64,000 nucleotides of DNA from Bacteroidetes bacterium B1(2017) (lineage in GTDB: Bacteria > Bacteroidota > Bacteroidia > UKL13-3). Below are positions 36,089 through 39,298 of the stretch, piece after piece. Below the pieces are notes generated by a model. It saw only the letters and a program-made list of their open reading frames with translations. It made no database searches and had not been told where the DNA came from. Both the position numbers and the translations under genes were made by a program. The stretch covers positions 186,001 through 250,000 of the forward strand of contig NKJG01000004.1 of NCBI GenBank assembly GCA_002256395.1, written 5' to 3'. The first letter of the stretch is position 1. Each line of letters starts with the position of its first letter.

Positions 36089-36505
36089 ATGACAGCACCA
36101 AAAGTAGGAGATGTGTTTACACATGATATTACCTACACTCAAGAACAAGTAGATCTTTATGCCCAAATTAGCGGCGATGTGAACCCTTTACATATAAATC
36201 CTGAAGTTGGCAAAGCCAGCATGTTTGGTAGAAATATTATCCATGGGCATTTTAGTGCCAGCGTATTCACTAAAATTTTTGGAACTCTATTATATGCTGA
36301 TGGTCATATTTACATGAAGCAAAATAATACCTTCTTAAAGCCAATGTTTGTAAACACGCCTTACCAAGCTGTAATTACCATTAAAGAAATTTACCCAGAA
36401 AAAAATAGAGTATTATACGAAACAAAAGTGGTTGACGTAGCTACTGGCGCTGACACAATTGTTGGCGAGGCCTTATTGATGAATAAAAAATCTTATGTTT
36501 GGTAA
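36089..36505 (+). CDS. phaJ: MaoC-like (R)-specific enoyl-CoA hydratase
   Basis: 138 aa from ATG 36089. Single hotdog domain. The hydratase-2 motif YAQISGDVNPLHINPEVG (about residues 24-41) supplies the catalytic Asp31 and His36, and IIHGHF follows. PhaJ-type enzymes turn trans-2-enoyl-CoA from fatty acid oxidation into (R)-3-hydroxyacyl-CoA, the monomer for PHA synthase. The genes for both synthase subunits follow at 36829 and 38243, which supports this role over a general MaoC function. A strong terminator separates it from phaE, so it is transcribed separately from its own promoter (not identified). Confidence 0.85.
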   Translation: MTAPKVGDVFTHDITYTQEQVDLYAQISGDVNPLHINPEVGKASMFGRNIIHGHFSASVFTKIFGTLLYADGHIYMKQNNTFLKPMFVNTPYQAVITIKEIYPEKNRVLYETKVVDVATGADTIVGEALLMNKKSYVW

Positions 36506-36525: not shown

Positions 36526-36566
36526 AAAAAAAGTCCTAGTTCACATATTGAGCTAGGACTTTTTTT
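36526..36566 (+). terminator. Rho-independent terminator of phaJ
   Basis: Seven A plus GTCCTAG (36526-36539) pairs with CTAGGAC plus seven T (36553-36566), 13-nt loop. Its symmetry would allow use in both directions. Confidence 0.85.
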
Positions 36567-36739: not shown

Positions 36740-36768
36740 TTGAAAATAAAGAAATTGTCCTAATTTTG
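36740..36768 (+). promoter_or_regulatory. Promoter of phaE
   Basis: TTG (36740-36742), 18 nt, TAATTTTG (36761-36768), an exact TAnnTTTG match; leader of about 55 nt before ATG 36829. Confidence 0.5.
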
Positions 36769-36828: not shown

Positions 36829-38127
36829 ATGGAAAACAAGAACATGTTTGAAACTTTTGCTGATATGCAAAAAAAAGCTTCTGAAACTTTTAACACAGCG
36901 GCAGAAACTATGCAAAAAGCAATGATGAATGGTGGGAATGTTGACTTTAATTCTGATTTCTTCAAAAAATGGTACGATAGCCAAATGAATTGGTTTAACC
37001 AAGCTCAAGGAGAAAACAAAAATGCACAATCATTTGAGTTCTTTAACAACTGGATGAGCAACCAAATGAACATGGCAAAAAATTGGCAAGAAATGAGTGC
37101 TAATATGTTTAAAGGTGTTCCTCAAATGAATACTATGAACACTGATTATAGCAACATGATGAATATGTTTAACTCATGGAAAGAAACTATGACGAATAGC
37201 TATTCTGAAATGATGACTAACATTAACAATGGTACAGCAAAAGAATCTTTCAGCGGTTTATTTAACAATGCTGAAATGTATATGAAAATGTTTGAATTGA
37301 TGATGCCAATGATGAAAAGTTTAAACGATAAAACGTTTACTCCTGAAATGTTTAAGCAATCATTCAATACAGAAATGTACAAAGACATGATGGACAAAAT
37401 GTTTAACATGCAACCTGATTTCATGAAAACCATGATGAACAATATGAATGGTGGAATGAAAGATCAAATGGGTAAGATGATGGACATGAACAAAAACATG
37501 TTTGATACCATGAAAAATAACATGAATGCCCAAATGGGTAACATGATGCCTAATGATATCTTTGGTTCGGCCATGAGCAACTATACAAACATGTATAACC
37601 AAATGAATTCAGCTTTTGCTCCTCTTACTAAGTTAATGCCTGTAAATAGCCAAACCAAAAATATGGAAGCTATGAAAGAAATTAGCAATATGTTAAGCGT
37701 TTACAATGTTAAAAATAGCCAACTTCAGTATATGATGTATACTACTGGATTAAAAGCTATGGATATTCTTTCAGAAAGTCTGTATACCAAGGTTAGAAAT
37801 GGCGAAGAGATGAAAGATTTTATGACTGTTTACCAAGAGTGGTTAAGCGTTCAAGATAAAGAATTTATCAGCTTATTTGAAACCGACGAGTATTCTAAAT
37901 TAATGGGTGAGGTTAGTGCTATGCAATTAACTTTAAAGAAAACCATTGAAAAAGAAATGGAAAAATCTATGAGTAGCCTGCCTTTGATTAACCGTACAGA
38001 AATGGATGAGTTATACAAAACAGTTTACGAATTAAGAAAACGTATCAATATGTTGGAAAAACAATTAGATACTGAAGTTGTAGTTGAAGAGCCAAAGGCG
38101 GCTAAGAAAACTGCTAAAAATGCATAA
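36829..38127 (+). CDS. phaE: Class III PHA synthase subunit PhaE, extremely methionine-rich
   Basis: 432 aa from ATG 36829. The C-terminal segment LPLINRTEMDELYKTVYELR with the following coiled coil (about residues 385-420) is the PhaE signature; the end is basic (KAAKKTAKNA), as in granule-associated proteins. PhaE is the non-catalytic partner that activates PhaC. About 66 residues are Met (~15%), most of them before residue 290, in amphipathic Asn/Met/Phe segments such as MMDKMFNMQPDFMKTMMNNM. This far exceeds ordinary proteins; a hydrophobic, flexible granule-binding surface is my inference. Own promoter upstream; a terminator lies between it and phaC. Confidence 0.85.
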   Translation: MENKNMFETFADMQKKASETFNTAAETMQKAMMNGGNVDFNSDFFKKWYDSQMNWFNQAQGENKNAQSFEFFNNWMSNQMNMAKNWQEMSANMFKGVPQMNTMNTDYSNMMNMFNSWKETMTNSYSEMMTNINNGTAKESFSGLFNNAEMYMKMFELMMPMMKSLNDKTFTPEMFKQSFNTEMYKDMMDKMFNMQPDFMKTMMNNMNGGMKDQMGKMMDMNKNMFDTMKNNMNAQMGNMMPNDIFGSAMSNYTNMYNQMNSAFAPLTKLMPVNSQTKNMEAMKEISNMLSVYNVKNSQLQYMMYTTGLKAMDILSESLYTKVRNGEEMKDFMTVYQEWLSVQDKEFISLFETDEYSKLMGEVSAMQLTLKKTIEKEMEKSMSSLPLINRTEMDELYKTVYELRKRINMLEKQLDTEVVVEEPKAAKKTAKNA

Positions 38128-38242: not shown

Positions 38243-39298
38243 ATGGATAACAAGAATTTTGCAGGAATGATGGATGAACTCCATACAGCAAGCAAGAAAT
38301 TAGTAAAAGGTTACGAAGTATTATCGGGTATACAAGACGTTGAGGTGGCAACTACTCCAAAAGAATTAGTTTGGGAAAATGATTTGGTTAAATTATACCA
38401 TTACAAGCGCGAAACTCCTGCTAAATGCAAGATTCCTGTCCTTGTTTCATTTGCTATAATGAACCGTCATGATGTGTTGGATTTACAACCTGATAGATCC
38501 TTAATGAAAAAACTTTTAGATGAAGGTTTAGATATTTACATCATGGATTGGGGGTATCCAAAACAACAACATAAGTTCTTAACCATGGAAGATTATATCC
38601 TTGGTTTTATGAATGATGCTGTTGACTTTGTTAGAAAAAGTACAAAAAGCCCTAAAATTCATAAAATGGGAATCTGCCAAGGTGGTACATTTAGCGCCAT
38701 ATACGCAGCATTATATCCAGAAAAATTAAAGTCTTTAACAGTTTATGTTACCCCGTTTGATTTTAGTGGTAATGAGTGTATGCTTTATAAATGGACGAAA
38801 GACCTTAACGTAGATGCAATGGTAGATAGCCTTGGTATTATCCCTGCTGATATGTTAAATGCTGGTTTTGGTTCATTAAAACCAAGTGCCGATATTTCTA
38901 AATATTTTGGAATGGTAGATATGATGCAAGATGAAGCCAAATTGAGCAATTTCTTGCGCATGGAAAAATGGAAAAACGATTGCCCAGACTTAGCTGGTGA
39001 AATGTTCCGTAAATACATTAAAGACCTTTGGAGAGATAATAAATTAATTAAAGGTGAATTTGAATTAGGTGGTAAATTGGTGAATTTAAAAAATATCACT
39101 ATGCCTTTCCTAAACATCTTTGCCACCGAAGACAATATTATTCCAAACAGCTCCACTCGTCCAGTAATGAAGGTTATTGGTTCAAAAGATAAAGAAGAAT
39201 ATGCCTTCCCAGGTGGACATATTGGCGTGTTTGTTGGTGGTAAATCTCAAAAAGAATTAGGTCCTAAAGTTGCCCAGTGGGTAATAGATAGAAGCTAA
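38243..39298 (+). CDS. phaC: Class III polyhydroxyalkanoate synthase catalytic subunit
   Basis: 351 aa from ATG 38243, the length of class III PhaC (about 355 aa). It polymerises (R)-3-hydroxyacyl-CoA into PHA. The alpha/beta-hydrolase lipase box is GICQGG with nucleophile Cys145. Asp297 lies in FATEDNIIP and His326 in FPGGHIGVFVGG, completing the Cys-Asp-His triad with spacing close to known class III enzymes. The start of the fold (PVLVSFAIMNRHDVLDLQPDRS) is also typical. It works as a complex with PhaE; monomers probably come from PhaJ. A strong symmetrical terminator follows. Confidence 0.92.
   Translation: MDNKNFAGMMDELHTASKKLVKGYEVLSGIQDVEVATTPKELVWENDLVKLYHYKRETPAKCKIPVLVSFAIMNRHDVLDLQPDRSLMKKLLDEGLDIYIMDWGYPKQQHKFLTMEDYILGFMNDAVDFVRKSTKSPKIHKMGICQGGTFSAIYAALYPEKLKSLTVYVTPFDFSGNECMLYKWTKDLNVDAMVDSLGIIPADMLNAGFGSLKPSADISKYFGMVDMMQDEAKLSNFLRMEKWKNDCPDLAGEMFRKYIKDLWRDNKLIKGEFELGGKLVNLKNITMPFLNIFATEDNIIPNSSTRPVMKVIGSKDKEEYAFPGGHIGVFVGGKSQKELGPKVAQWVIDRS

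Follow-up and report, generated by a model that had tools for sequence, protein, structure and literature searches.

Class III polyhydroxyalkanoate (PHA) synthases pair a catalytic subunit, PhaC, with a second subunit, PhaE (PF09712), and the means by which PhaE activates its partner and keeps hold of the polymer as it grows are, to our knowledge, still debated ground. The M domain of SRP54 has a Met-lined groove that binds hydrophobic chains. Another Met-rich system is yeast ataxin-2 Pbp1, whose Met-rich low-complexity region forms droplets that melt when Met is oxidised and come back through the action of Msr (PMC8394241). As far as open-access papers show, a Met-rich PhaE is new and was not previously described; no report of one was found among such papers on PhaE or polyhydroxyalkanoate and methionine.

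The window, a stretch of 64,000 nucleotides from contig NKJG01000004.1 of Bacteroidetes bacterium B1(2017), encodes a PhaE of this kind, assigned by sequence and gene order to a class III PHA synthase; the genome is a Bacteroidota MAG from a Chitinophagales-related family. The two synthase genes and the parts of PhaE were located as follows.

36829 to 38127, plus strand: phaE (open reading frame and translation; 432 residues, 66 of them Met, 15.3%)
36829 to 37698, plus strand: Met/Asn/Phe-rich N-terminal part of PhaE, residues 1–290 (composition, 55 Met or 19.0%; helical periodicity)
37276 to 37407, plus strand: densely Met-rich stretch, residues 150–193 (in a helical region predicted by AlphaFold2, pLDDT about 77–84)
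37699 to 38076, plus strand: conserved C-terminal PhaE helices, residues 291–416 (model confidence mostly 65–89)
38077 to 38124, plus strand: Lys/Ala-rich tail, residues 417–432 (conserved within the group in the alignment; low model confidence)
38243 to 39298, plus strand: phaC, catalytic subunit of the class III synthase, 351 residues, 5.4% Met (TIGR01836, 412 bits, cut-off 365)

The product of 36829–38127 was matched by the Pfam PhaE model PF09712 at 67 bits (E 2e-18), exceeding the gathering score of 25.7. Against the NCBIfam PhaE model TIGR01834, a narrow subfamily model, it scored 38.9 bits, and because this is far under the cut-off of 154.95, the product is called a PhaE only as Pfam defines the family, and a divergent one. 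The original prediction had named a PhaE with roughly 66 Met among 432 residues (about 15%); its coordinates, strand and length were all exact, and the assignment to PhaE is upheld by the Pfam match and the gene order, though TIGR01834 stays below its cut-off. In common with other PhaE of class III PHA synthases, the locus has the Pfam match, the phaE-phaC order, the conserved C-terminal helices and a PhaC over the TIGR01836 cut-off; what sets it apart is the Met content, 15% here against a mean of 4.9% outside its group. Met was predicted to be concentrated before residue 290, and 55 of the 66 were counted in residues 1–290, where Asn makes up 16.2%, Phe 7.9%, and Met and Asn together 35%. 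The C-terminal PhaE signature had been called ordinary, and this part is indeed less extreme, but Met in residues 291–432 still reaches 7.7%, roughly threefold the mean of the proteome.

The phaC gene lies 115 bp downstream of phaE, and this order is kept in most near relatives. Upstream of phaE, three further features were noted.

36089 to 36505, plus strand: gene for a MaoC-like (R)-hydratase, phaJ-like (PF01575, 59 bits; synteny)
36526 to 36566, plus strand: hairpin resembling a terminator, in the gap that separates phaE from the phaJ-like gene (matches the consensus, but not beyond chance expectation)
36740 to 36768, plus strand: possible Bacteroidota-type promoter of phaEC (TTG, 18 nt, TAATTTTG; candidate read from the letters)

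The Bacteroidota-type promoter consensus is TAnnTTTG. The phaJ-like gene adjoins phaE in most near relatives and is divergent from it in several; because of this divergence, phaEC is probably a transcription unit of its own. In two genomes of one related genus (L037 and L042), phaE and the phaJ-like gene were present and phaC was not found within about 8 kb. On the Taibaiella/Flavipsychrobacter side of the group (L092, L097, L101, L104, L105 and L115), phaE does not sit directly upstream of phaC; it is either found on the opposite strand downstream of phaC or lies at another place in the genome.

To sample the proteome, ORFs of 120 aa or more were taken without overlap from two contigs of the same genome (1.19 Mb), 885 in all. 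PhaE was the most Met-rich of these ORFs (mean 2.6%, sd 1.2; z 10.6 for PhaE), and the second-ranked was a small membrane-like protein with 7.8% Met. At a frequency of 2.5%, the binomial chance of at least 66 Met in 432 residues is about 2e-31. Enrichment throughout the proteome, a cause that the original prediction had itself raised, was not found. Proteome-wide Met use is ruled out by the mean of the 885 ORFs and by two control proteins, GroEL (3.0% Met in the group, 3.3% in others) and phosphofructokinase (3.8% and 3.3%), neither of which had a marked difference or a group-fixed Met gain. Slippage or tandem repeats were likewise rejected as a source of Met, there being no tandem DNA repeat of note in phaE. 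Within residues 1–290, the third position of codons for Lys, Glu and Gln is A in 51 cases and G in 5, and 3 Ile codons stand against 55 ATG codons, so the abundance of ATG does not come from base bias.

Met enrichment could still be an ordinary trait of PhaE or of AT-rich genomes, given that the 4.9% mean of PhaE outside the group is about twice the proteome mean of the B1(2017) genome. We consider this hardly credible; it is already contradicted by that proteome mean of 2.6%, by a MAG of 30% G+C (L128) whose PhaE holds merely 0.6% Met, and by the lack of correlation between Met and G+C in PhaE outside the group (rho −0.04). AT-driven composition as such is ruled out by the codon endings together with the low-Met L128 and the near-zero G+C correlation.

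In order to place this PhaE among others, three samples were used. Among 60 related genomes, PhaE was found in 20, all from the window's own family, and the PhaE of near relatives had 9–17% Met. When 296 genomes were drawn evenly across the phylum, few PhaE came up, and those of distant Bacteroidota had 3–8% Met. A scan for PhaC in one genome per species (84,980 species) gave 80 loci, and the PhaE set was built from these loci and from genomes in which phaE does not adjoin phaC. Across 77 PhaE, Met ranged from 0.6 to 17.4% with a mean of 8.3%, and Met enrichment, which the original prediction had allowed might be typical of all PhaE, is not. Values were 5–13% in the wider Chitinophagales-related group and mostly 1–8% in other PhaE.

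Met richness of PhaE is a lineage trait of one group of Bacteroidota. On a tree of PhaC, 20 of the 22 high-Met rows were clustered in one group of 37 rows. Relatives named in public genome data were mainly uncultured Chitinophagales-type Bacteroidota; the cousins that bear genus names are Taibaiella, Edaphocola and Flavipsychrobacter. Several rises and falls in Met level are needed on the same tree. Bernardetia-type PhaE (L118:2383-3816 and L131:2120-3643) have 10–11% Met and fall outside the main group, and the rise may for this reason have happened more than once. The opposite extreme was seen in the low-G+C MAGs L128 and L137, with PhaE Met of 0.6% and 1.3%. Plasmids were searched with PhaE by using tblastn, and no match was obtained.

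The residues that Met displaced were examined by aligning PhaE at increasing distance. Across the 77 PhaE, Met was strongly inverse to the sum of Ile, Leu and Val (Spearman −0.87), although related sequences are not independent, and rank correlations and p-values therefore make the evidence look stronger than it is. In distant PhaE, the positions taken by Met here most often carry Leu, Phe, Met, Ala, Ile or Val. Of 54 N-terminal Met sites, 32 (59%) are hydrophobic in at least half of the distant sequences, compared with 11% of the sites that are non-hydrophobic here; of the remainder, 10 are intermediate and 12 (22%) are mostly polar or small, so that part of the gain would be new hydrophobic surface and not replacement. 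Residue 158 is Met here and Trp in all 27 mid-distance relatives. Hydrophobic residues together make up 32% of the N-terminal part in distant PhaE, 31% in mid-distance PhaE and 35% in near relatives; their share thus stays near 31–35% while Met climbs from 6% to 17%. As read from these alignments, Met has replaced Ile, Leu, Val and aromatics as the main non-polar residue of a predicted helical N-terminal domain in this lineage.

The shift in PhaE is held by purifying selection. For residues 2–290, dN/dS was 0.055–0.064 in the closest pairs, with a median of 0.17. In relatives more than 40% identical, retention was 0.68 for Met and 0.73 for Phe, followed by Asn (0.56), Leu (0.52), Val (0.28) and Ile (0.12). 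Within the genus, PhaE is 68–79% identical over the whole protein and its Met-rich region aligns well.

PhaC was then compared column by column between 44 sequences of the group and 35 other PhaC. Met averaged 5.8% in the group and 3.6% in the other PhaC found (p 1.5e-13, uncorrected for relatedness). In the group, 26 residues are close to fixed but rare outside it; Met accounts for 7 of them and is the commonest gain, and the converse occurred once. The group-specific Met are residues 88, 101, 123, 180, 193, 254 and 309, all rare in other class III PhaC; they appear scattered along the sequence and not clustered. Outside the group, residue 101 is Ile and residue 180 is Leu in 35 of 35 sequences, Ile prevails at residue 88 and Asn at residue 309, and all four are mostly Met within it. 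Because PhaC has fixed Met too, the comparison points to a change in the synthase complex as a whole and not in PhaE alone. The parallel change in PhaC is of lesser degree than that in PhaE and was absent from the original prediction.

The most serious of the dull rivals is a near-neutral interchange, in which these sites need only be hydrophobic and Ile, Leu and Val drifted to Met without functional gain. Such drift would account for the roughly constant hydrophobic total and for the several rises and falls on the PhaC tree. It does not sit well with the retention of Met far above that of Leu, Ile and Val in the same region, since a residue with one codon is expected to decay fast, nor with the general avoidance of G-ending codons (51 to 5 in Lys, Glu and Gln), nor with a joint shift of PhaE and PhaC that GroEL and phosphofructokinase do not share. 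We regard this interchange as unlikely.

Met in residues 1–290 follows an alpha-helical period, with windowed power at 100 degrees of z 4.9 and a lag-4 autocorrelation of z 3.4. The residues ILVFWY alone gave a helical periodicity of z 2.8, which became 8.9 once Met was added; in 16 near relatives, Met periodicity ranged from z 1.8 to 5.1. An AlphaFold2 model built from 78 sequences is helical throughout, with a moderate mean pLDDT of 61.9 (an earlier model from 19 sequences was poor, at 44.6). Confidence is fair for residues 150–193 and about 244–416 and around or under 50 for residues 1–145. Comparison of the model with known folds turned up nothing significant (the best E from Foldseek was 1.4; Z from VIA-align was no higher than 7.6, which is normal for helical proteins), and a sequence search of solved structures gave no PhaE relative. 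The Met-rich hydrophobic helix face of the original prediction gains support from the helical periodicity of Met and from the mostly hydrophobic character of the same sites in distant PhaE.

We favor, with a probability of roughly 60%, a Met-lined flexible hydrophobic face on the PhaE helices that serves packing or contact, and we infer its partner to be PhaC, other PhaE or nascent polymer. On amphipathic helices, Met would make up hydrophobic faces that can flex and deform, and through these faces PhaE would pack with itself, dock on PhaC and/or hold the emerging polyester at the granule surface. The M domain of SRP54/Ffh resembles this arrangement in using Met as a flexible non-polar residue on one side of a helix, fit for varied hydrophobic partners; no homology is indicated, and the parallel is one of mechanism and not ancestry.

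Three redox readings were weighed against this one. By analogy with Pbp1, the Met/Asn-rich region could cluster the synthase into granule-seeding droplets that dissolve on Met oxidation, and the 35% Met and Asn in residues 1–290, the low model confidence over residues 1–145 and the precedent itself (PMC8394241) speak for it. Unusual Met abundance is common to both proteins, but unlike the Pbp1 region, PhaE is predicted to be helical, and its Met residues follow the geometry of the helix and keep their sites in a region that aligns well in the genus. For a disordered protein that forms condensates, composition should matter more than position. We hold such droplets to be quite unlikely. About as doubtful is a joint turn of PhaE and PhaC to Met at hydrophobic sites that would make a flexible PhaE-PhaC-polymer surface; reversible oxidation of Met would act as its switch and let granule formation sense redox state.

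The least probable of the three is an oxidant sink, as put forward in the original prediction, in which abundant surface Met on a granule protein would scavenge oxidants and be recycled by methionine sulfoxide reductases. Met is readily oxidised, and PhaE could, on general knowledge, be abundant at the granule. No phasin model was over its cut-off in this genome, in a low-power search that is uninformative because control genomes were likewise below cut-off. The sink is weakened because it needs neither the positional conservation of Met, as opposed to its amount, nor the tie to helix geometry; Met on the hydrophobic side of a helix would moreover be shielded, PhaC gained Met where all or almost all of the other PhaC have Ile or Leu, which looks like packing and not scavenging, and no other similarly Met-rich ORF was found in the 1.19 Mb. 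The condensate and the sink are possible readings that fit the helix geometry and positional conservation less well than a Met-lined face.

The Met-marked hydrophobic sites of both subunits offer a natural map of candidate contact sites, testable by Met-to-Leu swaps. Should the Met face bind polymer, it would provide a soft polyester-binding module for bioplastic work; should it be redox-sensitive, carbon storage would be linked to oxidative state.

The Lys/Ala-rich tail of PhaE is much longer in two distant Bacteroidota (L045:906-2303 and L046:8723-10081), where it is of the PAKKAxxKPAAKK type. These Lys/Ala-rich tails resemble the DNA-binding tails of PhaM/PhaF.
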